Below, piece by piece: positions 8,613 through 55,498 of a stretch of 64,000 bases of DNA. The position numbers and the translations under genes are program-made. The notes beneath the pieces were generated by a model. That model worked only from the letters and a program-made list of their open reading frames with translations, made no database searches and was not told the origin of the DNA. The number at the start of each line of letters is the position of its first letter. The first letter of the stretch is position 1. Origin of the DNA: a virus; the IMG/VR virus record IMGVR_UViG_3300012005_000003, positions 13,041 to 77,040 of that record; one strand, written 5' to 3'.

Positions 8613-9026
8613 ATGAGATTATACACTATAGAGGAAAGTTTAAATGAAGCGGAAGCTCGTCTTAGATTAGATATAATGCCTGAATGGTATAAGAAAGAAA
8701 TATATGATTTCAATAAAAAAATGAATTCTATACAAATAGAACACGATGGACGAGATATAGCTTTTGCCATAATGGATGAATACCAAGTTGTTAAATGCTT
8801 AGAATTAGCTAATGTTATTGATATGGTAGTACTAATTACTGACATCACAAAAAAGGCGATCGATGGAAAGCTTGAACAATATATATTGGATGATGAATAC
8901 ATAATGGAGAAAATCATCAACAGATTTATTTTAGAAAATGTTGACAAAGACACTATATTCGATAAGATCAACGAATTTGGTATTGAAAGTTTGACAAAAA
9001 TAGATTATGTTTTATTAAATTCATAA
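8613..9026 (+). CDS. Unknown protein, 137 aa, possible weak capsid-targeting leader
   Basis: A TTG start 11 codons earlier is possible, but the ATG at 8613 has an A-rich start region and the TAnnTTTG box at proper distance. The start MRLYTIEESLNEAEAR recalls the T4 leader MKTYQEFIAEAR in placing Tyr, then L/I-x-E-A. It deviates at the Phe position, so it is listed only as a weak leader candidate. The body is soluble and helical (QVVKCLELANVIDMVVLITDITKKAIDG). It stands alone on the plus strand between two minus-strand blocks. No family recognised. Confidence 0.65.
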   Translation: MRLYTIEESLNEAEARLRLDIMPEWYKKEIYDFNKKMNSIQIEHDGRDIAFAIMDEYQVVKCLELANVIDMVVLITDITKKAIDGKLEQYILDDEYIMEKIINRFILENVDKDTIFDKINEFGIESLTKIDYVLLNS

Positions 9027-9044
9027 AAAATAACTACAAACAAG

Positions 9045-9074
9045 AAAACCTCGATATATTTATATCGAGGTTTT
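9045..9074. terminator. Bidirectional terminator between convergent genes
   Basis: AAAACCTCGATATA at 9045-9058 is the inverse of TATATCGAGGTTTT at 9061-9074. The T-run works on both strands, and the hairpin lies between the convergent genes ending at 9026 and 9094. Confidence 0.85.
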
Positions 9075-9093
9075 GTTTTATAAAGAATTTTTT

Positions 9094-9450
9094 TTAGCCC
9101 ATTATAGGTGAACCATTAAATAAGCCTTTTCCGTTAGGATTCACTTCCATAGTCTTGGTTGCAGCATCGTAAGTCAAAGTATACTTGTTCAACAAAGGAA
9201 CTCCATTTCCAAAATCGTAGATAGCAGCAACAGCCTTTTTGATAGTTTCTGCATCCATTCCATGTTTAGTTAAAACATCAGAGTACACTTTCATACTTTT
9301 AGCTCGTGCTGGATTTGTTACAAAATCTAAAGCTTCTTTAGAAGATTTTAATGTATCATTCAATACATACTTTTTGTTACCAAAAAGACCTTCATTTATT
9401 TCTTCTGGTGTAGCAGAATACTGTTCGAATGTTTTAAGATGTTTCATCAT
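9094..9450 (-). CDS. Leader-bearing unknown protein, 118 aa
   Basis: The start MMKHLKTFEQY matches the shared leader of this phage, and a later EEINEG gives an I-x-E site about 20 residues in. After that site follow GLFGNKKYVLNDTLKSS and a compact domain with a hydrophobic C-terminal part (YTLTYDAATKTMEVNPNGKGLF). If the leader works as in T4, the protein enters the prohead and loses its first 20 residues or so. It is the last of four leader-bearing or adjacent genes read from 12.6 kb downwards. Body function unknown. Confidence 0.72.
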   Translation of the reverse strand: MMKHLKTFEQYSATPEEINEGLFGNKKYVLNDTLKSSKEALDFVTNPARAKSMKVYSDVLTKHGMDAETIKKAVAAIYDFGNGVPLLNKYTLTYDAATKTMEVNPNGKGLFNGSPIMG

Positions 9451-9505
9451 TTTTGTTTATTTTATGTTTTATATATTAATTTTTTCTGGCTGCTTTTTCA
9501 ACTAA

Positions 9506-9991
9506 TTAAGCTTGACTGATATCGCCTTTCAGTATTTTTATTTTATCATTTAGATCTTTCTGAAGATCTTTATAAATCTTGTCCAAGTTCTGTTTCTGTT
9601 TGTTTGCATCGCTTATATCTTGTTGAAGATTTTTTATCTTTTCCGCTGCTCCGGCTTTAGAATCAGGATCTGACATCTTTGCTTGTTCGGCTTGTATCTG
9701 AGCTTTAAGTTCTTCAGCTTTCGTTATTTGTTTTTCTCCTGCTCTTTCATTTTTTATTATCTGCCAGTATGTACTCAAAAGTCCATTTCCGTTTATGATT
9801 GGTACTACTTTTTTTTCCATATCATCTTTTCCAGCTTTCAATAGTGAAAGCAATTGTCCTTTCTTAGAATTGAAATAGTTCAATTTTGCTTGTAGGTCTT
9901 TTTTACGAACCATAGAAGCTTCCCTTTCAACATCTGTTTCAACATCTGCATCCTCAAATAGGAATTTTTCGTATGTTTTTAAGTGTTTCAT
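9506..9991 (-). CDS. Leader-bearing coiled-coil protein, 161 aa
   Basis: MKHLKTYEKFLFED has the leader form with FLFE in place of FLNE. The rest is almost entirely helical and highly charged, with heptad-like stretches (AEKIKNLQQDISDANKQKQNL), so a coiled coil is likely. Such rod-like, Lys/Glu-rich proteins resemble T4 internal or core proteins. It ends 55 bases before the leader-bearing gene at 9094-9450 and starts two bases after the stop of the 573-residue gene, so the three are one transcript. Confidence 0.72.
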   Translation of the reverse strand: MKHLKTYEKFLFEDADVETDVEREASMVRKKDLQAKLNYFNSKKGQLLSLLKAGKDDMEKKVVPIINGNGLLSTYWQIIKNERAGEKQITKAEELKAQIQAEQAKMSDPDSKAGAAEKIKNLQQDISDANKQKQNLDKIYKDLQKDLNDKIKILKGDISQA

Positions 9992-9992
9992 A

Positions 9993-11714
9993 TTATATAT
10001 TTAAAATTCCTGAAGAGTAGTGTTTTTCTAATTCCTTATAGTTTGCAGTATTTATATCAAACGTAGATGCCATATCTACTGGTGTAATACTAACTATTTT
10101 GCTATCTTCGCTTGTCAATACATTGATTTTAGATATATCAGCTCTGAATAAAAAATCTTTATCTTTTACATTTACTACATCTTTTATCTTGGATGAAGGA
10201 TTGTATATTTTACCTGAGATTGTATGACCTTTTGTTAAAATCTTTCCTTCTATTGCTATATAATAGAATGAATTGTTTATAGTCTTCAAACTTCCTTGTA
10301 TGAATGAACTCTTGATAGAATCTAACAAATCTGCGTCAAACATTTTTCTATTTGCTGTATTCGTAGTCAGATCAACTAATCCAGATTCGTTAAACAAAAG
10401 AACACTTATGAATAAACCAGTCTTAAAAGTCACAGGTATCAAAGCTATTGCAACGTTGCTCACTGTTTCGTTATTCATTCTGAATTCTCTAGATTGCATT
10501 TTAACAGTACTACATTCCAGAACTACAACTGAATTCATATAGTCTTTATGTATTATATTAATATTATCAACTTCTCTGAAATGCATTTTATCAGAATTTG
10601 GTTTTCCAGAATTAAATAAATCTACATTCGTATTTTTTCTAGTTGTTCTTACTAAAGCTTTAGTTTTATTGATAGCAGTATCGATATCAGCAAGTTCGTC
10701 CAATATTGATTGATCTCTATCAGAACCTTTATATTTTACAAAATTTGAAGTCAGAGAACTGTTGATATACTTCTGTATAGGTTTTGGTATGACAGTTCCT
10801 TTTTTTGCCAAAATGTCAAGTATTCCTTTTTCCCAGATCTTGAACAATCTTTTATTTATATCGTTTTTAGATTTTGAATATTTATCATCTTCTTCATCTT
10901 TTTCTTCAGTTGTAAAAATATCAACAGCTCTGTTTGTGATAGCTATGATCTCATATACACTTCTCGTTGCACCTTTCACATTATGAGAATCTGAATCAGC
11001 AGGCATATTCGAACGATCTCTGCTAGATTTTACAATATTTGAAAATTTAAGTTTTAGTGTTTCTAAATTTTTATTTACGTCATAACGAATATTTTTATCA
11101 TTCAGATAATTCTTGGTTTCTATATTGATCACACCGTTGATATCTACACCTTTATCGTTCTCAGCATCATCTATAAGTTCCTTTGTTGATCTTGTGAATT
11201 CCTCTAAAGTTTTCAAAAAGTTTTTTGCTTCTTCTGTATTAGAAACAATGCTTTTTGAAATATCCTGATATGATATTATATACTCATTAAGCTTCGATAT
11301 AAATTCAGTCTTTTTATAAACATCTTCCTTTGCTATGAAATCTGTCATCGCTTTTAAATCGGTATAAAAATCAAGCATCAAAGAAACGTTATTAACTTCT
11401 TCATTCTTTTCTATGTATTCTTCAGGAAGTTTTTCAATAGCTTGGTCCAATTTGACTAATAGATTTTTTAGGATGTTACTCTTTATACCAATAACATCTT
11501 TTATCTTATCCGTTAATGGAGATAATAAACTTACAGCTGATTTACCAAGAAAACCGAATACGGATTTGACAGCTCTTCCTAACAAAGAACTTTCGTCATC
11601 ACTATATCCTCTTCCTCTTTCAAGCAACATGACATCTTCATTCAAAAGATTATCAATACTTTCATTTAAGTTTTTTTCCAATAAGTGGAAATCTCTATCT
11701 TTTAAATATTTCAT
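9993..11714 (-). CDS. Leader-bearing putative internal virion protein, 573 aa
   Basis: The start MKYLKDRDFHLLEKNLNES is followed by NLLNEDVMLLERGRG, so there are three to four possible L-x-E sites within the first 40 residues, as expected for a pro-head protein cut by a gp21-like protease. Residues 40-80 carry Gly/Ala-rich hydrophobic stretches (LLGRAVKSVFGFLGKSAVSLL) that could be amphipathic. The middle is helical. The C-terminal 200 residues appear beta-rich (VVVLECSTVKMQSREFRMNNE). It is the longest leader-bearing protein here and could be a major injected protein. No T4 homologue recognised. Confidence 0.75.
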   Translation of the reverse strand: MKYLKDRDFHLLEKNLNESIDNLLNEDVMLLERGRGYSDDESSLLGRAVKSVFGFLGKSAVSLLSPLTDKIKDVIGIKSNILKNLLVKLDQAIEKLPEEYIEKNEEVNNVSLMLDFYTDLKAMTDFIAKEDVYKKTEFISKLNEYIISYQDISKSIVSNTEEAKNFLKTLEEFTRSTKELIDDAENDKGVDINGVINIETKNYLNDKNIRYDVNKNLETLKLKFSNIVKSSRDRSNMPADSDSHNVKGATRSVYEIIAITNRAVDIFTTEEKDEEDDKYSKSKNDINKRLFKIWEKGILDILAKKGTVIPKPIQKYINSSLTSNFVKYKGSDRDQSILDELADIDTAINKTKALVRTTRKNTNVDLFNSGKPNSDKMHFREVDNINIIHKDYMNSVVVLECSTVKMQSREFRMNNETVSNVAIALIPVTFKTGLFISVLLFNESGLVDLTTNTANRKMFDADLLDSIKSSFIQGSLKTINNSFYYIAIEGKILTKGHTISGKIYNPSSKIKDVVNVKDKDFLFRADISKINVLTSEDSKIVSITPVDMASTFDINTANYKELEKHYSSGILNI

Positions 11715-11722
11715 GTTTTTAC

Positions 11723-12253
11723 TTAATTATTTACAAATTCACCTTTCAGTTTCACATAATCAGGAAGTTCTAATATAGATTTATTATTTTCACACCAAAA
11801 ATCTCCTCCTACAAATTCAGGACATCCTTGCAGAGACTTTAATAAATTACTATAACAATAAAAATTTTTCCATACGTTTCCAGGGCATCCTTCTAATGAA
11901 ATCAACTGATTATTTGAACAAGAAAAATATCCTTCTATCTTCTGTGGGCAGTTTTTCAATGTCATTAATTCATTACCAGAGCAATCGAAAGATCCATCTA
12001 TTTCTACATTTTTCAACCATTCAGGTATTTCTGTCCATAGTCCTCCACTTAAACTCATATAGCCATTAACTTTCTTCAGTTTAACAAACTTTGCATCAAT
12101 ATCCATGAAAGATTCATCTAAAACAAGATCTCCATCGATTACTTCCTGAGAAAGCAACTTGATGTTCATCTGTTTCAGTTTCTCCTTTCGGCCTTCTAGG
12201 TTACGTGGAACCAATAAATTTTCGTTTATGAATGTCTTGAAATTTATTATCAT
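11723..12253 (-). CDS. Leader-bearing leucine-rich-repeat-like protein, 176 aa
   Basis: MIINFKTFINEN is a clear leader with an I-x-E site at residues 9-11. After NLLVPRNLEGR come short repeats of the form SLxGCPxxVxGxFxCxxNxL (for example LMTLKNCPQKIEGYFSC and LISLEGCPGNVWKNFYC), a repeat common in Bacteroidetes and phage proteins and thought to form a solenoid. It is a close relative of the protein at 28621-29082, with near-identical first 35 residues. A binding role inside the virion or the infected cell is plausible. The target is unknown. Confidence 0.8.
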   Translation of the reverse strand: MIINFKTFINENLLVPRNLEGRKEKLKQMNIKLLSQEVIDGDLVLDESFMDIDAKFVKLKKVNGYMSLSGGLWTEIPEWLKNVEIDGSFDCSGNELMTLKNCPQKIEGYFSCSNNQLISLEGCPGNVWKNFYCYSNLLKSLQGCPEFVGGDFWCENNKSILELPDYVKLKGEFVNN

Positions 12254-12254
12254 T

Positions 12255-21261: not shown

Positions 21262-23943
21262 TTAGTATGTTCTTGTTACACAAGTCCATGTTATGTTATC
21301 GTTTACAACTCCTGTCACTGTTATTAAAACATTAGTGCCACTTATAATTAAAGTGCTATCTAAACCAGATATTGATAAACTTGTATATGATGTTTGTACG
21401 ACACCTGCTATAGTTACGACACCTGCTATATTTTGATATGTTGCAATCCTTTCAAATGCACAACATTGTCCAACTGTGCCACTTCCTGTCCCTGATGTTT
21501 TAATAGCTTTGATTATAGTTTTAATAATTATAGATGTATTTAAAGGTACTGCTATAGTCTGTAATGTTACATTCGAAGTGGCGTCAGTTGTATTTACGGT
21601 AGCCCCTGTTACATCTTCAGTGATACCTGAAATAGGTTCTAATCTTTGGTTGATTGTACCACCAGATATATGAAATTTAGCAGCAGGTGACGTTGTGCCA
21701 ATTCCTACATATGTACCATTATCGAATATTATGCTATCAGTAATTGAATATGCAGAATTAAATTTTGCTATATAATTTGTAGTACCTGATACATTGCCAC
21801 TTGATTTCTGTAGAGCTGATAATATACTATCAGCTGATGTGATTAAACCTGCGCCTGAAATATATCCAGTTAAAGTAGATGATATTGCTCTAGCATTTGT
21901 AAAATATAAATTAGTACCTTCTGATAAATTAGTTGTTGATTTTGCACTGAATGCAGTATCAAATCTCGCTTGAGTATAATATAAATTTGTTCCTTCTGTA
22001 ACCAGAGTTGTAGTGTAATCTCCTGATACAGCTACAACAGCTCCTGTTCTACCAAATACACTTGATACTCCTGTAACTAATGCCGCAGTATTTCCATTTA
22101 ATTTTTGTATTGCACTTAATATAGAATCAGCAGCTGATATTATACCCGAACTACTCACATATCCTGTCAGTACTGAACTTATAGCTCTTGAATTTGTAAA
22201 ATATAAATTTGTTCCTTCAGTTAAATCGGTTGTTGTTTTTAATGTAAAAGCAGTATCAAATCTTGCTTGAGTATAATAAAGATTTGTTCCTTCTGTTAAA
22301 TCTGTAGTTGTTTTTAATGTAAAAGCTGTATCAAATCTTGTCTGCGTGTAATAAAGATTTATTCCTTCTGTTAAATTAGTTGTTGATTTTGCACTGAATG
22401 CAGTATCGAATCTTGCATTAGTATAATATAAATTAGTTCCTTCTATAATATTTGCAGTACTGAATGTTGTAAAATCAATATCAAAAACATTTCCAGTTAA
22501 TTTTAAATACAATCCATTAGTATAAGTTCCAACACCTGAAATCAATGCAAATGTAATATTAGTTGTACCTAATGTAATTGGATTCACATTAACAGCATAA
22601 ACTCTATTCTTTTCAATAGAACCATCTAACACATAAACTGTTGCACCTAATAATTCAGTAGAAGTGTCGGCATCGGTCGTTCTAGTCCAAGCTGCTGCAT
22701 TTGGATTATAAAGGCCATTTTGTGAACCTGTTGTTTGATTCTTAACTAAAATTCTATCAGTATTTGATAAAGTTCTTGATGTTCCATCTATTGTTGCTGT
22801 TAAACCTGTTAAAGGTAAATTTTCACCAGATGTTGTTGAATATAAAACTGAACGTTTCCAATTTAAACCGTTTAGATTCTGATCTACATAATTTTTATTG
22901 ACAGCCATATTAGCAGATGTAGGGTCTCCATTTAATATAAGTGATCCTGTCATTGTAGCTCCAGCTAAAGGTACATAAGCGCTAACTACTGACGTCAATT
23001 GTTGAACTGTAACAGCTTCTAGCGCTCCTACACCATTTTGAGATAGTGTAATTATAGGTGCGTTTATTTGTACTTTAGTCGTGTGCCTAATTTCTGAATA
23101 CAATGTTCGTATCTGAAATTTACCATAGTTGTACAATAAATTGATATCAGAAACTAAAAATGCGCCATCGTTATTTCCAATCGCTGCAAATGCTTCATGC
23201 ATTTGTAAAAATCCTTTATTAGAAATTCCAGACTCTGCATAAAAATCTGTGTCATTTATTTGTAAGTAATTTAATCCACTTGGACTCGTAATCGGTAAAT
23301 TGCCAGTGTTCGTATTTATAGATAAGACATCTGCTAAACCATTAATTAAAGAGGTTTGATATATAGTTGAATCTACAGAACCATCTGCTTTTAAAAATTG
23401 AGTAGATAATCCACCAGATCTAATAAATGATGTAGATGTGATACCAGTTGTACCGCTAATAGTTGTTGATGCAATGCCAGAGGCATCGTATACTATAATG
23501 CTACCACCGTTATTATCTATCGGTAGTAAAGAGATTTTGTTTAAACCATCAGTTGCACCTTTTAAAACTATAGAAATCGTAGTAGTATTTCCATTATATG
23601 TAACATCCTGAAGTGTCTCTGTTCCTGAGCCTGTTCCAGAACTTGTATTGTTCATATATTTGGACCACAAACCATTGAAATCTGATTGTACCAATGAAAG
23701 AATCTCTGTAGGAGAATTCAAAAATGCTATAAAATTATAAGTGCTGTTGAAGGTTGTTGTAAAACCTGTACCTACAGAATCTAGTGCATATGCTATATAA
23801 AGATAAGGGCCGAGCACTCCTGTAGCTTCCATGTCGTGATACATAGTGACAACAACATCGCGCATGTCTTGAGCAGAAATATCTCCTGTATTGTTATTAG
23901 ATAATAATGCAAGGAGAGCAGCTTTGTTTCTTATAGTATCCAT
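21262..23943 (-). CDS. Tail fibre protein, 893 aa
   Basis: The N-terminus MDTIRNKAALLALLSNNNTGDISAQDMRDVV is an attachment head seen on many fibres. Next come beta-rich joints, an AGATMTGSLILNGDPTSANMA joint near residue 330, and at about residues 500-590 a row of tandem 26-residue units (TEGTNLYYTQARFDTAFTLK-type). VFGRTGAVVAVSGDYTT follows. The C-terminus (ITGVVNDNITWTCVTRTY) matches a common terminal domain with a final TWxxxxRTY. It probably forms a trimer. Start ATG 23941-23943 follows a TAATATATAATAC block. It likely forms the distal fibre together with the giant fibre. Confidence 0.85.
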   Translation of the reverse strand: MDTIRNKAALLALLSNNNTGDISAQDMRDVVVTMYHDMEATGVLGPYLYIAYALDSVGTGFTTTFNSTYNFIAFLNSPTEILSLVQSDFNGLWSKYMNNTSSGTGSGTETLQDVTYNGNTTTISIVLKGATDGLNKISLLPIDNNGGSIIVYDASGIASTTISGTTGITSTSFIRSGGLSTQFLKADGSVDSTIYQTSLINGLADVLSINTNTGNLPITSPSGLNYLQINDTDFYAESGISNKGFLQMHEAFAAIGNNDGAFLVSDINLLYNYGKFQIRTLYSEIRHTTKVQINAPIITLSQNGVGALEAVTVQQLTSVVSAYVPLAGATMTGSLILNGDPTSANMAVNKNYVDQNLNGLNWKRSVLYSTTSGENLPLTGLTATIDGTSRTLSNTDRILVKNQTTGSQNGLYNPNAAAWTRTTDADTSTELLGATVYVLDGSIEKNRVYAVNVNPITLGTTNITFALISGVGTYTNGLYLKLTGNVFDIDFTTFSTANIIEGTNLYYTNARFDTAFSAKSTTNLTEGINLYYTQTRFDTAFTLKTTTDLTEGTNLYYTQARFDTAFTLKTTTDLTEGTNLYFTNSRAISSVLTGYVSSSGIISAADSILSAIQKLNGNTAALVTGVSSVFGRTGAVVAVSGDYTTTLVTEGTNLYYTQARFDTAFSAKSTTNLSEGTNLYFTNARAISSTLTGYISGAGLITSADSILSALQKSSGNVSGTTNYIAKFNSAYSITDSIIFDNGTYVGIGTTSPAAKFHISGGTINQRLEPISGITEDVTGATVNTTDATSNVTLQTIAVPLNTSIIIKTIIKAIKTSGTGSGTVGQCCAFERIATYQNIAGVVTIAGVVQTSYTSLSISGLDSTLIISGTNVLITVTGVVNDNITWTCVTRTY
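22195..22440. repeat. Tandem 78-bp repeats in the 893-aa fibre gene
   Basis: Three to four copies of a 78-base unit encode TTDLTEGTNLYYTQARFDTA-type segments. The copies differ by few bases, mostly synonymous, implying recent expansion. Confidence 0.85.
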
Positions 23944-23968
23944 GTATTATATATTAGAAACTCAAAAC

Positions 23969-28620: not shown

Positions 28621-29082
28621 ATGATAACAAACTTTAAACAATTTAATGAAAATCTGTTGGTTCCACGCAACCTGGAAGGGCGCAATGAGAAGCTCAAGCA
28701 GATTAACATCAAGCTGCTTTCTCAGGAAGTGATAGATGATAATTTAGAACTTGATGAGTCATTCATGGACATAGATCCTAAATTCGTGAAACTGAAAAAA
28801 ATAAATGGCACTGTTACATTAACAGGAAATCATTGGACCGAAATTCCTGAATGGTTAAAAGATGTGAAAATAAGTGGAATTTTTGATTGTTCAGATAATA
28901 AGTTAACAACTTTAAAAAATTGTCCTCAGGATATAGGAGGAAGTTTTTGGTGTGCGTTCAACAAATTAACATCTCTTGAAGGATGTCCTAAAATATTAAA
29001 AAAATCTATCCATTGTTTTGACAATAAAGTTAAATTAAAACTTCCAGATTATGTTGATTTAAGAGGTAATATTTACAATTAA
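28621..29082 (+). CDS. Leader-bearing leucine-rich-repeat-like protein, 153 aa
   Basis: A paralogue of the protein at 11723-12253. The leader MITNFKQFNENLLVPRNLEG is one residue shorter around the cleavage site (FNEN instead of FINEN), so the L/I-x-E motif is imperfect. It carries the same repeats (LTTLKNCPQDIGGSFWC, LTSLEGCPKILKKSIHC). The ATG follows AAATATATAGATC. The two copies are on opposite strands 16 kb apart, indicating duplication by gene transfer inside the genome and not tandem doubling. Confidence 0.78.
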   Translation: MITNFKQFNENLLVPRNLEGRNEKLKQINIKLLSQEVIDDNLELDESFMDIDPKFVKLKKINGTVTLTGNHWTEIPEWLKDVKISGIFDCSDNKLTTLKNCPQDIGGSFWCAFNKLTSLEGCPKILKKSIHCFDNKVKLKLPDYVDLRGNIYN

Positions 29083-29830: not shown

Positions 29831-30160
29831 CTAAACAGGCTGATAGTCGAAAGAAGAGTCCATCTTCTTGAGCATTGCAAATTTCTTGATTAGTTCTTTC
29901 TTTATGTTTGGAAGTTTCAATCTTTCAATAAAAGACAAATCCCATTTGATATTACCGTTATCGCCAAATCTACAAATAGATTTTCCAAAAGTTCTTCCTG
30001 GATCTTTTTCTTCCGAATCATAAACTGTTACAGATCCAAGGTGTCCAACACACTTCATGCCGTGTTTCGATAGCTCTGAAGCGAGTTCTATCAATCTCTG
30101 AGCCATGAAATCATTTCTTCTTTCATTGATAAATGTTTCATAGGTCTTAATAGTTTTCAT
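29831..30160 (-). CDS. Leader-bearing unknown protein, 109 aa
   Basis: MKTIKTYETFINER is the leader here closest to T4 MKTYQEFIAEA, and FINE fits the I-x-E site. The body has a segment HGMKCVGHLGSVTVYD that resembles LLKCVGRLCLLIHD in the leader-bearing protein at 46836-47237, so the two may be distant relatives. It is divergent from the leader-bearing gene at 30194, with 33 bases between their starts, and the TATATA there may serve this gene. Confidence 0.7.
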   Translation of the reverse strand: MKTIKTYETFINERRNDFMAQRLIELASELSKHGMKCVGHLGSVTVYDSEEKDPGRTFGKSICRFGDNGNIKWDLSFIERLKLPNIKKELIKKFAMLKKMDSSFDYQPV

Positions 30161-30193
30161 ATGCTTATATATAATTCAAATAGGTTTATCATC

Positions 30194-30805
30194 ATGATCC
30201 ATAATTTCAAACAGTTTCTTAACAAAATATACGAAGGCTACCAAGTTCCAAACGATGGTAGAAAATATAAATCTCTTTCTAGCGATGATATGAAAAAGAT
30301 TGCAAGTAGAAGATTATCAGATTCTGATATGAAACATCCTAGTCATGATATTGAAACAGCAGAAGTTGAAAAGGCTCCAAAGCTTAAAACAATGCCAGGA
30401 TTCAGAAGACTCATGTATAAGGATGCGGATCCTAAAAATATCAATGCAATCGCTTATGGTCCACTTGATATAGTTTTTGAACTAGATTTGGAAAACATAC
30501 CAGTTTATTCTGAATATCTAGAATCAAAACATAAAAACAAAAATGGATATGGCATAGGAAAGGCTTTATATTATGGATGGTCAGCAGATCAATACAGTGA
30601 TCAGCCTTATTTCTTTGTGACTTTATCTATAAACGATTCTAATGACAAACCAGCAGCAAACTTCATTCCTGATGTTCCTGTAGACGAACATGAAATGTAT
30701 GATCTTGTCTGGCAATTACTGGATGCGATAGATGATGTTAAAAGTGACAAAGAAGAATTACTCAATCCTATATATGTTACTAGCGGTAGACTAACCGATA
30801 AATAG
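30194..30805 (+). CDS. Leader-bearing unknown protein, 203 aa
   Basis: The start at 30194 (MIHNFKQFLNKIYEG) is preferred over an ATG at 30161, which would put 11 extra residues before the leader. The site reads FLNK or KIYE, so cleavage may be shifted. The body (VFELDLENIPVYSEYLESKH, ALYYGWSADQYSDQPYFFVTL) is mixed alpha/beta with no known motif. Divergent from another leader-bearing gene. Confidence 0.68.
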   Translation: MIHNFKQFLNKIYEGYQVPNDGRKYKSLSSDDMKKIASRRLSDSDMKHPSHDIETAEVEKAPKLKTMPGFRRLMYKDADPKNINAIAYGPLDIVFELDLENIPVYSEYLESKHKNKNGYGIGKALYYGWSADQYSDQPYFFVTLSINDSNDKPAANFIPDVPVDEHEMYDLVWQLLDAIDDVKSDKEELLNPIYVTSGRLTDK

Positions 30806-32166: not shown

Positions 32167-32712
32167 ATGAAACATATGAAACATATTAAACTTTTTGAAA
32201 CATTCATTGCTGAATCCAAACAGTCATTTCCTGATATCCAGAAAGAGAAGAAGGAACTTGACAAATTAGGAAGATATGAGATATTTGTTGGTAAACCTGA
32301 ACAAGTGTCTAATTTTTTGAAAGAATGTGATCCTGACATGTTGAAATGGATCCAGGAGATGTCTGATACACAAGTCAAAGTATATCTTTCGCCGAACAAT
32401 AGATATCTTATGAGACCTATCGGAATCTTATCTTTAGAAAAAGGTTTATTGAAAGTTGATTTAAATAAAGCAAGATTGTTAGAATCCATCAACTGGATGA
32501 GCATGGAAATACCCGCAGAATCAGAATGGGAAATAACAGATGGTAAATTCAAAGATTCCAAAGTGTATAAAATCAAGAAATTTGATAATTCTTACATTAT
32601 ACCTTCAGATAGAGTAAATTGGTTTAAAGAACATATTGGAACAACAGTTAGATTCAAATACGATCCATCTGAAATGTTGATGACCAATATTCATATCAGT
32701 AAAAGAGCTTAA
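32167..32712 (+). CDS. Leader-bearing unknown protein, 181 aa
   Basis: The start reads MKHMKHIKLFETFIAES: the first three codons ATGAAACAT are duplicated, so translation may begin at 32167 or 32176. FIAES matches the T4 site FIAEA very well. The body is soluble (GRYEIFVGKPEQVSNFLKEC, VKVYLSPNNRYLMRPIGIL) and mixed alpha/beta with no known motif. TATATA lies nine bases before the first ATG and directly follows the terminator, giving a compact transcription unit. Confidence 0.75.
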   Translation: MKHMKHIKLFETFIAESKQSFPDIQKEKKELDKLGRYEIFVGKPEQVSNFLKECDPDMLKWIQEMSDTQVKVYLSPNNRYLMRPIGILSLEKGLLKVDLNKARLLESINWMSMEIPAESEWEITDGKFKDSKVYKIKKFDNSYIIPSDRVNWFKEHIGTTVRFKYDPSEMLMTNIHISKRA

Positions 32713-44421: not shown

Positions 44422-45231
44422 ATGATTATCAACTTTGAAAAATGGAAGTCTATAAATGAAAACAGAATTGTAGAAACTGATCATTTAATAGCATATTTAG
44501 AATCCATCAAAAAGATGGAACCGAGTAAATATAAATCTCATTCTGATCCAAATAAAGAAATCGACAAAGTGAAAGATGAAGCTTTTCAAATGCTTTTATC
44601 CGAAGAAACAGAATATGATATGAAGGATATCATGATGGATTTTGCAACCTATGATTCACCTGAAAATGACGAAAATATGGAAGATGCAATATGGAATAAA
44701 AATTTTGTAGAATCTCTAGATGAAGATTTTGACCCTGAGAATGTTTACAGACAAGCTTCTTTCAAAGATCTCAAGTCTAATTTCTCTGAAGATGGATATC
44801 AAATGTTTTTAAAACACGCTAGAAATGTATTCGATTCTGAATCAGATGAGATGATTTCAAAAGTTGAAGAAAGTTATTCAGAAGATGGCTATATTGATAT
44901 ATGGAGAGCTGTAGTGTACAAAACAGAAGAGTTATCAAAGATCAAAAGTAAATATGCTGGAGTTGGAGTCTATTGGTCGTGGGAAGAAAATACAGCAGAA
45001 TCTTACCATGCTGAATTCATAGGACATGATATCGTTTTGCATGGAAAGGCTACCACAGAAAGTATAGATTGGAAGAACACTCTATATAAAAATGTTTATA
45101 TTCTGAAATATGAAAAAGAAATACTATTGAAAGACTATAGTTCTGTAATGATTGTAGGTTTTCATGATAGCAAAACAAACAAATACGTAAAATTAGACGA
45201 ACCTATAGTTGTGAATACTGGAATATCTTAA
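44422..45231 (+). CDS. Leader-bearing ADP-ribosyltransferase-like protein, 269 aa
   Basis: The leader is MIINFEKWKSINEN, with an I-x-E site at 11-13. Residues 20-150 form an acidic helical part. The last 110 residues follow the R-S-E order of ADP-ribosyltransferases: IDIWRAVVYKTEEL (Arg162), GVGVYWSWEENTAESYHAE (Ser186), and YEKEILLKDYSSVMIVGF (Glu231 and Glu233, an ExE pair as in Arg-specific enzymes). T4 Alt, an ADP-ribosyltransferase carrying such a leader, is packaged and injected to modify host RNA polymerase. The same logic would apply here. Three bases follow the coaE stop. The fold call is motif-based. Confidence 0.62.
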   Translation: MIINFEKWKSINENRIVETDHLIAYLESIKKMEPSKYKSHSDPNKEIDKVKDEAFQMLLSEETEYDMKDIMMDFATYDSPENDENMEDAIWNKNFVESLDEDFDPENVYRQASFKDLKSNFSEDGYQMFLKHARNVFDSESDEMISKVEESYSEDGYIDIWRAVVYKTEELSKIKSKYAGVGVYWSWEENTAESYHAEFIGHDIVLHGKATTESIDWKNTLYKNVYILKYEKEILLKDYSSVMIVGFHDSKTNKYVKLDEPIVVNTGIS

Positions 45232-46835: not shown

Positions 46836-47237
46836 TTAAACATTTTTACAAAATTCTATAAATTCATTATCAAAATTTCCTTGTTCGTCAAATACTCTAT
46901 GATCTAGATATTCTTCATCCTGAACAAAGAATGGATAGTTTGATTTGTTGTTATATCTAGCAACAAACATGTATTCTTTATCATTGATAAAGAACTTAAT
47001 ATTCGAAATAGTTAAATCACCATCAGTTGTCATTCCTATTTCAAATGCTTCAGAATTATGTTCAACTTTAACTCCATCAGGAGCTTTATCATCATGAATC
47101 AGTAAACATAAACGACCTACACATTTCAATAGCTTAGCTTCGTTAAATAGATCTCTTGGAAGCACCCTATCGTAATTCAGATTGATCTTATTTTCGGAAT
47201 AAGATTCAAACTGTTTGAATGTTTTGATAGGTTTCAT
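46836..47237 (-). CDS. Leader-bearing unknown protein, 133 aa
   Basis: An upstream ATG at 47273 would add 12 residues and overlap the gene before; the ATG at 47235-47237 gives MKPIKTFKQFESYSENK, a leader without a clean L/I-x-E site near residue 13. Further on, RDLFNEAKLLKC offers L-F-N-E. The segment LLKCVGRLCLLIHD resembles one in the leader-bearing protein at 29831-30160. The rest is beta-rich (LTISNIKFFINDKEYMFVARY). Possibly an injected protein. Confidence 0.65.
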   Translation of the reverse strand: MKPIKTFKQFESYSENKINLNYDRVLPRDLFNEAKLLKCVGRLCLLIHDDKAPDGVKVEHNSEAFEIGMTTDGDLTISNIKFFINDKEYMFVARYNNKSNYPFFVQDEEYLDHRVFDEQGNFDNEFIEFCKNV

Positions 47238-47241: not shown

Positions 47242-47580
47242 TTATTTAAAATATTCGCTAAATCTAGTAGCAAATTTATCTTTTTGATGAGGTTTGAATT
47301 TTTCTAAACCTGCTAAAATCGCAGTTTTATATTTAGTGTTCCATTCTGAAGGATTTTTACAATTATCTCTTCCTACAGGTTTCAACCACATCTCAGGATT
47401 GTCTTCATGCCATTCGTTAAAGGTGTCTGTCATCCACATATACATATCAGGAAGTTCATCTGTAGCATATTGCCAAGATTTAGCATCATTTGGAAATTTA
47501 TCCAAAAATTTATTAAATTTATCAATATTGAATTTATTAGATTCGTTTAAAAATTGTTCGAATAAGTTTATATGTTTCAT
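47242..47580 (-). CDS. Leader-bearing unknown protein, 112 aa
   Basis: MKHINLFEQFLNES is among the best leaders, with cleavage predicted after Glu13. The body is helical and Trp-rich (SWQYATDELPDMYMWMTDTFNEWH), with a basic ending (KFKPHQKDKFATRFSEYFK). The ATG follows TTTAATATATAATGC. It is read just before the leader-bearing gene at 46836-47237, so the pair could be packaged together. Confidence 0.75.
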   Translation of the reverse strand: MKHINLFEQFLNESNKFNIDKFNKFLDKFPNDAKSWQYATDELPDMYMWMTDTFNEWHEDNPEMWLKPVGRDNCKNPSEWNTKYKTAILAGLEKFKPHQKDKFATRFSEYFK

Positions 47581-50673: not shown

Positions 50674-51147
50674 ATGATTTACAAATTTAAAGAATTCTTA
50701 AATGAATCGAAAAAACCAGAGCCAGATCTGAAGGCTCTTGAAGCTCTGTTGGAAGAATACAGATCCGAAATGGAAGAGGAGGAAGAATGGTCCGATAACA
50801 AGGAATGTTTTAAGGGATCTTGTCAGGATGTTACCAATAGATTAGAAACATTTTTGGAAGATGCTGGTTATGACGCAGTTCGCACCCGAGGATACTACAC
50901 TAATGCTGGAGATGATTACTATCCAGATATGGATAATTGGGATCTGGACGATATAGAATGGTTTCAGAAGAAGTATGATAAAAATGATGGAAGTTCTAAT
51001 GGATTGAAATTTCCTCACTGGTGGATAGAAGTTTTCAATTCAAAATATATCATAGATCTAACAGAAGATCAGTTTCATCCAGGTGAAGAAGATGATTACA
51101 GAATAGGAATTTATAAAAAACCAGTAAAATATTACAAGAAAGGATAA
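50674..51147 (+). CDS. Leader-bearing papain/transglutaminase-like protein, 157 aa
   Basis: MIYKFKEFLNES is a strong leader with cleavage after Glu11. The rest resembles a small cysteine-protease/transglutaminase-like family: CFKGSCQDVTNRLETFLEDAG (Cys50) as in GxCxxxSxxLxxxLxxxG, PHWWIEVFNSKYIIDLTEDQF with His115 and Asp128 as the remaining triad. Some relatives act on peptides or isopeptide bonds. The insertion of about 45 acidic residues between Cys and His is longer than usual. If packaged, it would be delivered into the host as an enzyme. Start preceded by CTAATATATAATAA. Confidence 0.62.
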   Translation: MIYKFKEFLNESKKPEPDLKALEALLEEYRSEMEEEEEWSDNKECFKGSCQDVTNRLETFLEDAGYDAVRTRGYYTNAGDDYYPDMDNWDLDDIEWFQKKYDKNDGSSNGLKFPHWWIEVFNSKYIIDLTEDQFHPGEEDDYRIGIYKKPVKYYKKG

Positions 51148-51447: not shown

Positions 51448-51474
51448 TGGATATTCGTTTCTAAAGGTGACACA

Positions 51475-51633
51475 ATGACAAAATATGGTGATAATTGCTA
51501 CAATGTTTATTTTAAAGACTTACGTAATATATATTCTATGCAAGATGAACTGACTGATGATGCTATGATCTATATATACAATTCAAAAACTGATAAACCG
51601 ATACTTAAAAACCTAAACGATGAAACATATTAA
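51475..51633 (+). CDS. Small unknown protein, 52 aa
   Basis: Too short for simple gene finders but coding in character: MTKYGDNCYNVYFKDLRNI, then DELTDDAMIYIYNSKTDKP. The same frame reads in from the preceding gene's TAA (51445-51447), so it may be the downstream half of one split gene. Its end overlaps the ATG of the next leader-bearing gene by 14 bases. No family recognised. Confidence 0.5.
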   Translation: MTKYGDNCYNVYFKDLRNIYSMQDELTDDAMIYIYNSKTDKPILKNLNDETY

Positions 51634-52510
51634 ACTTTTTGAACAATTCATTAATGATCATAAATTGGATATTAATAGCGATATCCAATGTTATAATATA
51701 CTCAAAGAAACAGAAAAATCTTATATAAAAACAGATGTAACAATAATAGACAATGATTTTGATCATGATGATATAGAATACAAAAGAACTAAAGCTTACA
51801 AACTGGAATATTTTGTCAATTGGATGGATTTGGAAACATCATCAGATCCAGATACTGATAAATTTGATAACATTATTGAAGCTTATGAAAATGCTCAGTT
51901 AGAAGGTAATTGGTTGAATGGACATACAGAACATGTGAAAACAATAGATCTTATGTTTAAAGAAGTTTGGTTGAATTCTGATGATTCAGAATATGATGAA
52001 ACTGGAAAAATATTAAATATAGAAGAAGCAAAAAATATAAAGGTTTTAAATCAATTTATAACATCTCTTGAGCTTGGAACAAACGACGTCATCTATATAA
52101 AATCTTTTGGAAAAAGAGATGATAATGCAAAAGATTTAGAAGCTGAAGTTTATGTTCATATAGGTAAAGATCTAGAAAGATTATTCACTGCTGAAAATGG
52201 TCAAAAATATAAAATAGTTCATGCAGGAAGAGGAAAATATTCTAAATTGATCATAGAAGATAGTGAAGGTGAAGAAATTGATAGCATCAAATTAAGAATT
52301 TCAGATCATACATACAATCCATCTAATAACGATGATGAATCAAGAAGTGGAAAATTCATATCAATAGAGATAGCGAATGTTAATCCTACTAAAAATAGAT
52401 TCAGAACAGCTTATTCGTTAAGTTTTGATGGAGAAAATACATATTCAGAAGTTCTAGATTGTGTGAATGACAGGATTGATGACATAATAAAAAATATAAT
52501 TAAATTGTAA
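51620..52510 (+). CDS. Leader-bearing unknown protein, 296 aa
   Basis: MKHIKLFEQFINDH has the leader with IND in place of INE. The body is large: an acidic first half (IEAYENAQLEGNWLNGH, NSDDSEYDETGKI) and a beta-rich second half in which LRISDHTYNPSNNDDE may be a functional loop. It ends with FRTAYSLSFDGENTYSEVL. No enzyme family recognised. The next gene starts directly after its stop (52511), implying coupled translation of consecutive cargo genes. Confidence 0.7.
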   Translation: MKHIKLFEQFINDHKLDINSDIQCYNILKETEKSYIKTDVTIIDNDFDHDDIEYKRTKAYKLEYFVNWMDLETSSDPDTDKFDNIIEAYENAQLEGNWLNGHTEHVKTIDLMFKEVWLNSDDSEYDETGKILNIEEAKNIKVLNQFITSLELGTNDVIYIKSFGKRDDNAKDLEAEVYVHIGKDLERLFTAENGQKYKIVHAGRGKYSKLIIEDSEGEEIDSIKLRISDHTYNPSNNDDESRSGKFISIEIANVNPTKNRFRTAYSLSFDGENTYSEVLDCVNDRIDDIIKNIIKL

Positions 52511-53113
52511 ATGAAACATATCAAACTATACGAACAATTCGTAAATGAATCATTAACATATAATGATGTTCAACAATATTTAAAAAAAATAGATCCTAAA
52601 TTGACCGATCTTTTTAATGTCCTCACAACATTGATGACATGGTCTGGTAGTAACACTGTAGGTGGATATGACCAAGAACAAATGACCTCAACTATTAAAA
52701 ATGTAAAAATGTTAAAAAAATATTTTAAAGTTAATGATATTCCAAAAGTTTTATATAGAGTGACATCTGAAGAGCGAGATTTTAGATTTAAACCAGGCTT
52801 TATTATAGATAGTCCTGTTTTTAATTCTGGGCCAGGTTGGAGTTCAGGCTTACATGTTATGAATACTAAAGACGATAGCCAAATAGCAATTAAAATAATA
52901 AATCCTGAAAAATGTTTGGGTGTTTCTTATAAAGAATTAATAAAATTATTAGAAATACTTAAAAAAAATATGGGCCAAGAATACAAAAAATGGTTTTCAG
53001 GAAGTACTATGGAATATTTTAAAGATGACAAAGAATGTTATATACTTAATGGAACAAAATTAGAAATTATCAGCATTAGTAACGATAATATATTAACTTG
53101 TAAAGCTATATGA
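52511..53113 (+). CDS. Leader-bearing, possible ADP-ribosyltransferase-fold protein, 200 aa
   Basis: MKHIKLYEQFVNES is a good leader with V in place of I/L before the Glu. After a helical part, KVLYRVTSEERDF (Arg83) could be motif R, NSGPGWSSGLHVMN motif S, and KECYILNGTKLEIISIS (Glu175) resembles the ExEVLLxxGTKFxVxxI strand of many toxins with this fold. Only one Glu is found where ExE is usual. Alternatively it may be an unrelated protein, as motif S is weak. Cotranscribed with its neighbours. Confidence 0.5.
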   Translation: MKHIKLYEQFVNESLTYNDVQQYLKKIDPKLTDLFNVLTTLMTWSGSNTVGGYDQEQMTSTIKNVKMLKKYFKVNDIPKVLYRVTSEERDFRFKPGFIIDSPVFNSGPGWSSGLHVMNTKDDSQIAIKIINPEKCLGVSYKELIKLLEILKKNMGQEYKKWFSGSTMEYFKDDKECYILNGTKLEIISISNDNILTCKAI

Positions 53114-53139
53114 TTGTTATAAAAATATTAAAGAAATAA

Positions 53140-53685
53140 ATGAAACATATCAAACTATTCGAAGATTTCAACAAAGAATCTGAAAAAATATACAGAAATA
53201 CTAATATACAATGGTTATTGAAATTCCTCAAAAAAGGAGAAATAGACAGATATAAAGAAAACAGGTTTATATCTTTCTCGTTTGAGCCAGACAGTGGAGG
53301 ACAGGACAATTTCGGAGATACTCATATAGAATTCGATTCTAACGAAGTGTTCAAACAGGGTGCTGTAGCTATAGAATATGATGAAGATTTCTTTGAAGAA
53401 AATCCTGACATATCAGCTTATGTGACAGGTTTTAAAAATGAAGATGATTATTATAAAAGTAATGATTACAAAGACAAAGAAGACTTTGAACAGAATGGTC
53501 ATGATGATGCAAATACTCTCATGTGGTCATCCAATATAGAAGGCTATGAAGGTGAAGCCGAAATAGTCATCAAGAAACTTGAATATATACCTGGTATGAT
53601 CACCAAAGTAGTTTTAGACAAACCTATCAGTAAAAAGGATATGGAATTTATAGAATCTTTTGACATACCAGTAGAACTAAAATAG
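53140..53685 (+). CDS. Leader-bearing ADP-ribosyltransferase-like protein, 181 aa
   Basis: MKHIKLFEDFNKES is a leader with NKE in the site. The rest matches the R-S-E plan: EKIYRNTNIQWLLKFL (Arg19), NRFISFSFEPD (Ser45/Ser47), and EGEAEIVIKKLEYIPGMITK (Glu139 and Glu141, ExE). The distance between motifs and the closing strand MITKVVLDKP agree with small phage ADP-ribosyltransferase folds. Arg19 lies near the predicted cleavage point, so cutting at Glu13 would leave it just inside the mature protein. Of the three candidates this is the best one. The substrate is unknown. Confidence 0.6.
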   Translation: MKHIKLFEDFNKESEKIYRNTNIQWLLKFLKKGEIDRYKENRFISFSFEPDSGGQDNFGDTHIEFDSNEVFKQGAVAIEYDEDFFEENPDISAYVTGFKNEDDYYKSNDYKDKEDFEQNGHDDANTLMWSSNIEGYEGEAEIVIKKLEYIPGMITKVVLDKPISKKDMEFIESFDIPVELK

Positions 53686-53689
53686 AAAC

Positions 53690-54190
53690 ATGAAACATAT
53701 CAAATTATACGAAGAATTCTCTAAAACCAATGAAACGGTTTTAAGAAACGACCTTCCAAAGATAAAATCTTTCATAGACAAATTATTGGCTATGGTAAAG
53801 GACTCAGAACTTGTAAAAGACATCAAGAATTTTGTGTCCAACCACGAGATAGATCCTTATCCGTACACGTTCGAAACTTTCATAAAAGATCTTAAAGCTC
53901 AGTTCAGCAGCAAGGTTGATTTTTCAAGCATAGTCGAAAGTGTCAACGAATCTAAACAGAAAGTGAAATCTGATAAGGAAGATAAACTACTTTACAATAA
54001 CGATTCTAATCATATTGATTTCGATGTATATAAACCATCAAAAGAAGGAGTTTATAAAGTTTACATGACATCCAAGAATGGCAGAAATACACGTCATGAC
54101 AAAGCTCACTGGAATGGTTCTGAATTTGAAACAAGTAAAACATTTGGCTTGAGAAATGACCAGATAACACATTTCGAAAATAAAATATAA
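53690..54190 (+). CDS. Leader-bearing unknown protein, 166 aa
   Basis: MKHIKLYEEFSKTNE keeps the leader front, with the site drifting to KTNE. The first 90 residues are helical, and a second L/V-x-E-like stretch occurs at FSSIVESVNESKQK. The C-terminal 60 residues (VYKVYMTSKNGRNTRHDKAHWNGSEFE) are beta-rich and basic. Its last codons (FENKI) and the hairpin behind them are duplicated around 55100. Function unknown. Confidence 0.68.
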   Translation: MKHIKLYEEFSKTNETVLRNDLPKIKSFIDKLLAMVKDSELVKDIKNFVSNHEIDPYPYTFETFIKDLKAQFSSKVDFSSIVESVNESKQKVKSDKEDKLLYNNDSNHIDFDVYKPSKEGVYKVYMTSKNGRNTRHDKAHWNGSEFETSKTFGLRNDQITHFENKI

Positions 54191-54195
54191 AAACG

Positions 54196-54242: not shown

Positions 54243-54277
54243 TAAAAAACAAAACAAAACAAAAAAAATGATAAAAA

Positions 54278-54919
54278 ATGATAAAAAATTTCAAACAATT
54301 CTTAAATGAATCATCAAAAAAATCTGATGATGAAGCTATGAAAATGATAATTGATTATTTTTCTGATAATGGAATAGAATTATCAGATCATAATGAGATT
54401 GGTCTAGATTATAATGATGATAAAGTTATAAAAAGACATGTAGTAAGCCACCCAGAAACTTACATAAATGTTTTACCGGATGGTTCATTTTGCGTCACAA
54501 GTGGTAATGAAAAATCGTTATCTATGTATTCATATACTAGAAATTTAAAAACAACATTAAAAAATGCTAAAGAATGTTTCTTTAGCTATAAAGATTCTAA
54601 ATCTTATAAAGAATTTTCTGCTGTTTTAGACTATATGGAAAATATTGGTTATAAAATACTTTATAACACAAAATTGTATGCAGATGGTAATGTCGAAAAT
54701 AAAAAAGGTGTAATTTTTAAACTTTCTTATCTATCATTTCACGATAGGGCTCCAGAATATGTATTAGTACCTAAATTTATACTTGATATTTTTATTAAAA
54801 GTCAACGTAGTATTTCTGCGTTTATTCCTAGTTATGCGCCTTTAGATCTTGGAAGTTTGAAAGAAAGAGCTAAATTATGGCTTAATATTGAGGAAAAAGA
54901 TCTTCCTGTAGAGGAGTAA
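54278..54919 (+). CDS. Leader-bearing unknown protein, 213 aa
   Basis: MIKNFKQFLNES is a strong leader with cleavage after Glu11. An identical ATGATAAAAA ten bases upstream (54268) is out of frame, indicating local duplication at the start. The body has helices and strands (YINVLPDGSFCVTSGNEKSL, GVIFKLSYLSFHDRAPEYVLVP). No family recognised. A strong terminator follows at 54984. Confidence 0.72.
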   Translation: MIKNFKQFLNESSKKSDDEAMKMIIDYFSDNGIELSDHNEIGLDYNDDKVIKRHVVSHPETYINVLPDGSFCVTSGNEKSLSMYSYTRNLKTTLKNAKECFFSYKDSKSYKEFSAVLDYMENIGYKILYNTKLYADGNVENKKGVIFKLSYLSFHDRAPEYVLVPKFILDIFIKSQRSISAFIPSYAPLDLGSLKERAKLWLNIEEKDLPVEE

Positions 54920-54983
54920 TCTAAAAACTAGAAAGCCTATATGAAAGGATGATCAGATCATACATACTGTTTCTACGGAAAAA

Positions 54984-55010
54984 GGCTCTACCAAAATAGA
55001 GCCTTTTTTT
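54984..55010 (+). terminator. Rho-independent terminator
   Basis: GGCTCTA at 54984-54990 pairs with TAGAGCC at 54997-55003, with seven T. An A-run before it lets it work on the minus strand as well. Confidence 0.9.
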
Positions 55011-55023
55011 GAATATATAGTTC

Positions 55024-55116
55024 ATGATAACAATCAAAGAAAAATGCTCAGATCTTGTAATACAACCACTGACAATGGACCAAGTGTTAAGTTTATCTTT
55101 CGAAAATAAAATATAA
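55024..55116 (+). CDS. 30-residue remnant frame before hairpin copy 2
   Basis: ATG at 55024 follows TATATAG and gives MITIKEKCSDLVIQPLTMDQ, ending SLSFENKI. The final codons and next 50 bases equal the end of the gene at 53690-54190. Either a new small gene or the scar of a duplication that placed a start next to an old gene end. Confidence 0.35.
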   Translation: MITIKEKCSDLVIQPLTMDQVLSLSFENKI

Positions 55117-55121
55117 AAACA

Positions 55122-55168
55122 GAGCTTATATGTTTAAATTCATATTATATATTTAAACATATAAGCTC
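55122..55168. repeat. Long hairpin, copy 2 (47 bases)
   Basis: GAGCTTATATGTTTAAAT pairs with ATTTAAACATATAAGCTC. Compared with copy 1, one G-C pair has become A-T on both arms, so pairing is preserved. The next gene starts 19 bases later. Confidence 0.85.
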
Positions 55169-55186
55169 TAAAAAAACAAAAAAAAC

Positions 55187-55498
55187 ATGAAACACATGAA
55201 ACACATCAAATTATTTAAAGATTTCTTAAATGAGTCATTCAATATTACATCTGAAAAAGATGATAATTATGAAAAAACAGACATTGTTATAGATATAATA
55301 GCAGGAAATTCAGGATTCGTAGGAACTGTAAAAGGGACCTATGATAATAAAAAAGTTGATGCAACTATTTTTTATGGATATGAAAAAGGCTCTCAATTTT
55401 TATCAATAGAAGACGATAATCTTACTAACGATGATATTGAAATGCTTACTGATATTATTGAAAATGATGAAAATTTTATAAAATCTACCAATGAATAA
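55187..55498 (+). CDS. Leader-bearing unknown protein, 103 aa
   Basis: MKHMKHIKLFKDFLNES repeats ATGAAACAT at its start, so translation may begin at 55187 or 55196. The FLNES site is complete. The small body is acidic and beta-rich (IVIDIIAGNSGFVGTVKGTYD, KVDATIFYGYEKGSQFL). Last of the plus-strand leader-bearing run. Function unknown. Confidence 0.72.
   Translation: MKHMKHIKLFKDFLNESFNITSEKDDNYEKTDIVIDIIAGNSGFVGTVKGTYDNKKVDATIFYGYEKGSQFLSIEDDNLTNDDIEMLTDIIENDENFIKSTNE

Follow-up and report, generated by a model that had tools for sequence, protein, structure and literature searches.

We analysed a 64,000-nucleotide stretch of viral DNA (the window: positions 13041-77040 of the 101,400-base IMG/VR virus record IMGVR_UViG_3300012005_000003, "the record" below meaning the whole 101.4-kb fragment), in which many proteins begin with the same kind of short N-terminal leader. 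The results indicate that this leader is very probably a propeptide of the phage T4 kind, which would target proteins to the prohead and be cleaved there, and that many of the bodies behind it are probably injected. The capsid-targeting interpretation, already proposed in an earlier sequence-only reading of the window, is supported by a predicted gp21-type protease, by scaffold repeats with the same core as the leader, by a conserved capsid site x-E↓N (the arrow marks a predicted cut), by mutational data from T4, and by 26-64 strong leader candidates in each complete related genome. Among 50,697 phage records searched, the capsid protein and prohead protease of the record are closest to those of four public 'uncultured phage' genomes, with 50-56% identity in the capsid protein:

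W01: LR756501, 735 kb (LR756503 is equal in length and match)
W02: LR756502, 642 kb
W03: LR745206, 635 kb
W04: LR756504, 636 kb

These four complete relatives and the record, a fragment, are the five genomes referred to below; W05 (LR756500) and Lak-C1 are large phages at a greater distance that share the protease type.

We defined the full leader motif as [FYW]xx[FYW][LIV]xE (Ar-x-x-Ar-[LIV]-x-E, Ar being an aromatic residue) and the partial motif as the aromatic pair alone. The sequence-only reading had assigned a shared leader to 19 proteins. The leader is real, but it is looser than had been claimed: the full motif is present in nine of the 19 (9506, 11723, 29831, 32167, 47242, 50674, 52511, 54278 and 55187), the aromatic pair alone in eight (9094, 28621, 30194, 44422, 46836, 51620, 53140 and 53690), giving 17 with the pair, and neither half in two (9993 and 51148); three weaker candidates (8613, 48942 and 993) have neither the full motif nor the pair. 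Seventeen of the 19 positions, given for minus-strand open reading frames (ORFs) as the stop end, correspond to ORFs as listed, but two leaders begin at internal Met codons, one at 30194 within ORF 30161-30805 and one at the 13th residue (window 47237) of the ORF ending at 46836, which had been listed with a TTG start. The leader tolerates V beside L and I and lies at a variable distance from the start Met, and in the nine full leaders the predicted cut falls after residue 11-16, leaving a short N-terminal propeptide as in the T4 type. The leaders with a full or partial motif are:

9418..9450, minus strand: ORF 9094-9450, aromatic pair, MMKHLKTFEQY; INE↓G follows a few residues later
9953..9991, minus strand: ORF 9506-9991, full leader, MKHLKTYEKFLFE↓D
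12221..12253, minus strand: ORF 11723-12253, full leader, MIINFKTFINE↓N; paralogue of 28621
28621..28644, plus strand: ORF 28621-29082, degenerate leader, MITNFKQF then NEN; the aliphatic residue is absent
30122..30160, minus strand: ORF 29831-30160, full leader, MKTIKTYETFINE↓R
30194..30217, plus strand: Met 30194 within ORF 30161-30805, aromatic pair, MIHNFKQF then LNKIYE↓G
32167..32214, plus strand: ORF 32167-32712, full leader, MKHMKHIKLFETFIAE↓S
44422..44445, plus strand: ORF 44422-45231, aromatic pair, MIINFEKW then KSINE↓N
47208..47237, minus strand: ORF ending at 46836, aromatic pair, MKPIKTFKQF; no [LIV]xE in the first 30 residues
47542..47580, minus strand: ORF 47242-47580, full leader, MKHINLFEQFLNE↓S
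50674..50706, plus strand: ORF 50674-51147, full leader, MIYKFKEFLNE↓S
51620..51649, plus strand: ORF 51620-52510, aromatic pair, MKHIKLFEQF then IND; Asp stands in place of the expected Glu, and the protein would accordingly be packaged but stay uncut
52511..52549, plus strand: ORF 52511-53113, full leader, MKHIKLYEQFVNE↓S
53140..53169, plus strand: ORF 53140-53685, aromatic pair, MKHIKLFEDF then NKE
53690..53719, plus strand: ORF 53690-54190, aromatic pair, MKHIKLYEEF
54278..54310, plus strand: ORF 54278-54919, full leader, MIKNFKQFLNE↓S
55187..55234, plus strand: ORF 55187-55498, full leader, MKHMKHIKLFKDFLNE↓S

The motif and its enrichment at protein N-termini are observed directly. A strict scan of the whole record retrieves 22 ORFs, one of them the scaffold read from an internal start; nine of the other 21 lie within the window and 12 past its right edge. 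In a gene-based test (called genes of at least 80 amino acids, motif at offset 2-11, three internal windows of the same proteins as controls), the motif lies near the start in 18 of 123 record genes, against 0, 0 and 0 in the control windows; 200 shuffles of the record's N-termini give a mean of 0.24 motif genes and a maximum of 2. The corresponding counts are 49 of 822 genes for W01 (controls 2, 0, 1), 27 of 815 for W02 (1, 4, 2), 26 of 787 for W03 (6, 2, 1) and 23 of 754 for W04 (1, 1, 2). A profile trained on W01-W04 alone picks out 18 of the 123 record genes at a threshold of 8 bits, where internal-methionine decoys predict 0.7. Strong candidates, scoring at least 12 bits, number 174 (W01, 64; W02, 35; W03, 32; W04, 26; record fragment, 17). 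The decoy rate at this threshold, measured with one start per gene, predicts about 2 per complete genome, and the candidate counts at both thresholds allow another Met within 45 residues, so that chance lies somewhat above the decoy rate. At P3, 151 matched strong leaders have I (75), L (50), V (23) or M (3), the match itself having required L, I, V or M. Leader genes are weakly frequent as neighbours in the record fragment (p 0.045) and not significantly so in the four complete genomes (p 0.11, 1, 1 and 0.22); Fisher tests and family counts take related genes as independent.

Three candidates proved false and still stand inside both the 8-bit and the 12-bit counts: a DegT aminotransferase, W04_214366, and W02_181747 and W02_480100, which are starts within longer proteins. 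W01-W04 also contain a repeated family of ORFs with YYFF(I/V/L)(G/N)EE near the start, peptidase-like by eye, in which an internal segment mimics the leader pattern; these starts were dropped from profile training and from the promoter, body-family and environmental-locus counts, and kept in the strict scan and the gene-based test.

The presence of a prohead protease, of a repeat-bearing scaffold and of a candidate cut site in the capsid protein is likewise observed, at the right end of the window:

61439..63121, minus strand: major capsid protein, T4 gp23 family (PF07068; 105.1 bits against a cut-off of 24.4)
62987..62989, minus strand: capsid Glu45, predicted P1 of the cut site QLNE↓N
63207..64000, minus strand: C-terminal part of the prohead protease-scaffold fusion, whose ORF starts outside the window

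The fusion ORF, upstream of the capsid gene, encodes 743 amino acids (record 76247-78478); residues 5-233 match phrog_207 (head-maturation protease; E 1.2e-26), and a long repetitive part follows. A profile of the protease part, built from 35 environmental relatives, matches T4 within gene 21 (E 4.7e-5), all ten other records (the window's record, W01-W04, W05, Lak-C1, KVP40, S-PM2 and P-SSM2), and four of four further phages. We folded the protease part alone because the model of the whole fusion was poor; for the predicted fold of one relative (predicted local distance difference test score, pLDDT, 68.6) the sole PDB matches below E 0.001 are the three chains of 5JBL, T4 gp21 (E 1.3e-6 to 1.4e-6). 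A sequence search of solved structures gave no match where the fold search succeeded, and Pfam-A gave at most a sub-threshold S80 match to the protease; PF03420 (peptidase S77) matched neither the record nor any of 14 control genomes and is therefore uninformative. We conclude, from profile matches and the predicted fold, that the phage encodes a putative gp21-type protease. W01 carries in addition a second, shorter prohead protease relative (11437-11808, in ORF 11314-11850; E 4.3e-28), reminiscent of the diverged protease paralogue described for SPN3US in the relevant passages of PMC5694885.

The repetitive part of the fusion is built of a 14-residue unit that contains Y-x-x-Y-[ILV]-A-E, mostly with I at -2 (51 repeats counted), and is predicted, in a low-confidence model of a relative, to form one long helix. 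In each of the five genomes the scaffold is the called protein with the most internal copies of the leader core (record, 12; W01, 14; W02, W03 and W04, 11 each), and the residue after the core is similar in leader and repeat, N or S being frequent in both. Three further proteins link the two: a W03 ORF of 83 amino acids holds three scaffold repeats and, from an internal Met, begins MNYEDYIAES; a W01 ORF of 207 amino acids holds three repeats inside; and W04_145806 has a second core copy exactly 14 residues behind its leader, the sole candidate with a strict in-register second copy. W05, whose scaffold is decayed with two strict core copies, and Lak-C1 and the Tenacibaculum phage PTm1, whose protease-scaffold ORFs have none, also have few leader-pattern matches. 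An alternative is that the leader directs proteins to another destination, such as the membrane or a phage compartment, and resembles T4 by convergence; membrane binding by a short, aromatic and basic N-terminus is conceivable. However, the [LIV]-x-E part would be purposeless there, and the scaffold shares both the core and a similar next residue, so we regard this alternative as very unlikely. Because a profile of the scaffold repeats hardly retrieves leaders, we limit the likeness to the core and do not claim homology. A W01 ORF of 1691 amino acids (21458-26533), which overlaps the W01 match of window ORF 6952-8406, holds a motif of its own (FVKYIIE and similar) seven times at intervals of about 60 residues.

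Portal and capsid protein both belong to the T4 kind. The Glu-Asn of the predicted site is invariant across 11 aligned capsid proteins, and position P3 is occupied by L or I, and by Met in W01. We extended the comparison to 83 environmental loci with related capsid genes, from two scans (the second contributing the best 80 of 324) and none used in profile training; the loci were found through the peptide just upstream of the capsid site, and the site pattern itself fixed the Glu. All 83 have the predicted site, with I (79), L (3) or V (1), then x-E↓N. A protein with at least five core motifs is present in 82 of the 83, and 40 of them (1.50 Mb in total for the 83) contain 56 leader genes at 10 bits or more. 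These loci are not independent events, because some are near-identical, and L165 and L214 are one contig.

The closest known counterpart of the leader is the capsid-targeting sequence of T4. As in T4, a short N-terminal leader with aromatics three apart, then L/I-x-E, stands on different bodies, together with a gp21-type protease and a capsid protein with a candidate site of the same kind. The sequence-only reading had cited MKTYQEFIAEA as the start of the T4 internal proteins and Alt; this holds for IPII and IPIII, but IPI begins MKTFKEFTSTTT and Alt begins MELITELFDED. A strict scan of T4 retrieves five of 409 frames: IPII and IPIII (MKTYQEFIAE), gp61.1, and ORFs at 114210 and 20112; IPI and Alt fall outside the strict motif, and the T4 capsid protein holds FGSFLTE↓A. 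The leader spacing Ar-x-x-Ar-[LIV]-x-E corresponds to positions 4, 7, 8 and 10 of T4 IPIII. The passages of PMC9026906 that deal with T4 report that IPIII needs no more than its first ten residues for packaging, that positions 4 and 7 serve targeting and positions 8 and 10 processing, that Asp at position 10 blocks processing and leaves targeting unaffected, and that internal-protein propeptides are 10-19 residues long. According to the relevant part of PMC12373910, T4, which has three internal proteins, uses them to inhibit type IV restriction enzymes, and at least ten such proteins are reported from T-even phages.

The system here also differs from known ones. Unlike T4, with its three internal proteins, each complete relative has 26-64 strong candidates, including recognisable enzymes, and the protease is fused to the repeat scaffold. 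Protease and scaffold are by annotation also one protein in the Tenacibaculum phages PTm1 (a frame of 597 amino acids) and pT24; unlike the megaphages here, PTm1 has no strict core copy in its fusion protein and only 1+1 raw leader-pattern matches. phiKZ and SPN3US resemble the present phages in having many head proteins and a gp21-related protease cutting after glutamate, as described in the portions of PMC9026906, PMC10052503 and PMC5694885 that concern them. The motif given there is S/A-x-E or A-x-E; the strong leaders matched here, by a pattern that itself required L, I, V or M at P3, do not fit the phiKZ type. The relevant passages list nine SPN3US substrates with propeptides mostly of 111-254 residues and two short ones (PMC10052503), and describe no short leader common to dozens of proteins for either phage. 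Among the open-licence PubMed Central papers searched, no title or abstract opening names such a leader in huge phages. New here are the scale of leader use and the likeness, in the core, of leader and scaffold repeat, possibly with a tie between the two.

The modular use of the leader is seen directly in the bodies behind it. By BLAST at 1e-4 with the first 22 residues left out, 204 candidates of at least 8 bits from the five genomes fall into 153 body families, 126 of them with a single member (some false starts included). The earlier description of the bodies as unrelated nearly holds: among the 17 window proteins with a full or partial motif the sole paralogue pair is 11723 and 28621 (57% identity), with further copies of that family outside the window. 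One family of 18 leader proteins, of 333-623 amino acids, extends across W01-W04 and has leaderless relatives in the same genomes; two members scanned singly have no Pfam match. These cases are what a reading of all leader proteins as one large, diverged family could draw on, but the 153 body families and the different Pfam families represented make such paralogy the hardest of the alternatives to credit. Five body families contain a leaderless homologue whose first residues align directly behind the leader. Among them, a Glu/Gln-type tRNA synthetase has the leader in W04 and none in W03, the two sharing 47% identity across 493 residues. A T4 Rnl1-type RNA ligase likewise has it in W02 and none in W04; the body of window ORF 50674-51147 has a relative in LR756504, W04_142126, with a leader of its own. 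For 35 W02 and W03 candidates with a partner of at least 40% identity in the other genome, some pairs being counted from both sides, 28 partners score at least 8 bits.

Some leader proteins may be core proteins that stay uninjected. A broader form of this possibility is that leaders do target the prohead and are cut, and that most of the proteins are core or structural head parts, like T4 gp67 and gp68, and are never delivered. The W03 and W01 ORFs with three scaffold repeats each fit such a role, and many bodies are unassigned: single Pfam scans of 30 candidates left 16 with no family at E 0.01, and five window leader ORFs scanned singly have no match over cut-off. But the families over cut-off among the 30 include enzymes without evident structural role, namely polyphosphate kinase 2 (PPK2), Sa_NUDIX, radical SAM, RNA ligase and tRNA synthetase, beside RNase_T and FMN reductase, and the set differs between phages, as the single-member families show. 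We therefore consider it unlikely that most leader proteins are undelivered head parts. The 2'-5' RNA ligase family is over cut-off in two leader proteins, one of which is also above the Acb1 cut-off; a methyltransferase match is barely above cut-off and a DHH match below it. Bodies of more than 400 amino acids occur among the strong candidates. Pfam scans of 159 representatives (two families with representatives crossing piece borders left out) gave other families, each represented by one to three members and not every one assigned to a particular protein, and a PADLOC scan of 79 of the 159 gave eight families with one member each.

A further alternative holds that the N-termini came to be shared when a promoter was copied along with a start region, and that they have no role at the protein level. 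A TATATA box does lie 10-30 nt before many starts. However, 11 class-A leaders of the record encode constant His, Ile, Leu and Phe/Tyr residues with varying synonymous codons, leaders differ at most positions outside the core, and the leader is kept in most W02/W03 partners. Because codons change synonymously within it, the leader is kept as residues and not as a copied DNA cassette, and we regard the copying alternative as highly improbable. In all five genomes, leader genes have a longer TATATA-type box in the 60 nt upstream more often than the remaining genes do (p 0.0013 to 6.7e-10); for plain TATATA the record alone falls short of significance (p 0.055). TATATA is visible by eye in all ten upstream stretches of capsid and protease genes, the W04 protease start having been called too early. 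By analogy with T4 late promoters, the box fits late expression of the leader genes together with the head. TATATA often begins just 10-13 nt before the ATG (for example at window 28621, 32167, 44422, 47242 and 50674), with a second group at about 24-33 nt; boxes so close to the ATG might leave the transcript with a very short 5' untranslated region or none.

According to the capsid-targeting interpretation, late in infection the N-terminus, with its two aromatics three apart, would dock on the prohead core, most likely through contact with the helical scaffold, in whose 14-residue repeat the leader core recurs. After closure of the shell, the gp21-type protease would cut after [LIV]-x-E in the leaders, the scaffold and the capsid protein, and the mature bodies would be freed inside the head, many of them probably to be delivered with the DNA into the next host. 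We infer docking, packaging, cutting and injection from the likeness to T4 and from the shared sites. A more specific version, to which we give somewhat less than even credence, is that the leader amounts to one scaffold repeat, that cargo docks by mimicry, and that dozens of enzymes are carried into the cell; we offer the mimicry as a good hypothesis and not as a result.

A raw survey of 16 phages used two fixed-spacing DNA patterns on both strands, with matches counted at all places including outside genes; it is crude and covers its two fixed spacings only. Matches to the first and second pattern (reversed-pattern controls in brackets) are:

Window's record: 9 (2) and 1 (0)
W01: 30 (1) and 19 (2)
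W02: 9 (7) and 4 (6)
W03: 13 (4) and 5 (4)
W04: 8 (3) and 6 (5)
W05: 3 (0) and 3 (2)
Lak-C1: 5 (3) and 0 (3)
T4: 1 (0) and 3 (0)
S-PM2: 1 (0) and 0 (0)
P-SSM2: 0 (2) and 2 (0)
CP81: 1 (1) and 2 (0)
PTm1: 1 (1) and 1 (0)
BF: 4 (2) and 3 (5)
KVP40: 2 (0) and 2 (0)
phiKZ: 1 (1) and 0 (3)
phiM12: 1 (0) and 0 (0)

The signal is clear for the window's record and W01 and weak for W03 and W04; W02 is not above control here, and its leaders are visible in the gene-based test.

Several results count against a capsid-targeting role. The full motif is missing from eight of the 19 listed window proteins and both of its halves from two more. The leader proteins of these phages are known here from sequences alone, and confidence in the structure models is low to moderate (pLDDT 58.7 and 68.6). 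Seven of the 35 W02/W03 partners score below 8 bits, of which four have a core-like start, and two of the seven queries are false starts. The profile of scaffold repeats alone retrieves 2 of 2445 N-termini at 10 bits, with 0.7 expected. The W01 capsid protein has Met, not L, I or V, before x-E↓N. In the survey, W05 (3+3 versus control 0+2) and Lak-C1 (5+0 versus 3+3) are near the reversed-pattern control.

Proteins of megaphages known from metagenomes alone are mostly unnamed. A sequence-readable tag would show which of them ride in the particle and would shortlist candidates for early-acting and counter-defence proteins, and the question of what the largest phages inject would become directly answerable by virion proteomics. 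The natural leader set, with its loss variants, is useful for studying cargo choice. If the mimicry hypothesis is true, acquiring a dozen codons turns a gene into head cargo, and infection by the largest known phages starts with a preloaded toolkit that includes a Glu/Gln-type tRNA synthetase, an RNA ligase, polyphosphate kinase 2 and an Acb1-like phosphoesterase directed against the cyclic-oligonucleotide-based antiphage signalling system (anti-CBASS).

Three further observations concern other genes. Just downstream of the capsid gene lie two adjacent homing-endonuclease-like ORFs (window 57802-59607 and 59638-61329; phrog_3339, E 1.5e-123 and 3.1e-106). An ORF of 473 amino acids (window 56297-57718) has, by eye only, a start like that of a class I tRNA synthetase. 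Beyond the window, an ORF of 613 amino acids (L002 10821-12662; record 87820-89661) contains a further leader copy from residue 418, IITNFKQFVNEN, which shares its frame with a paralogue of the 11723/28621 family and, by eye, has Lys at the paralogues' Met; two products would be expected if this protein were cut at the internal copy.

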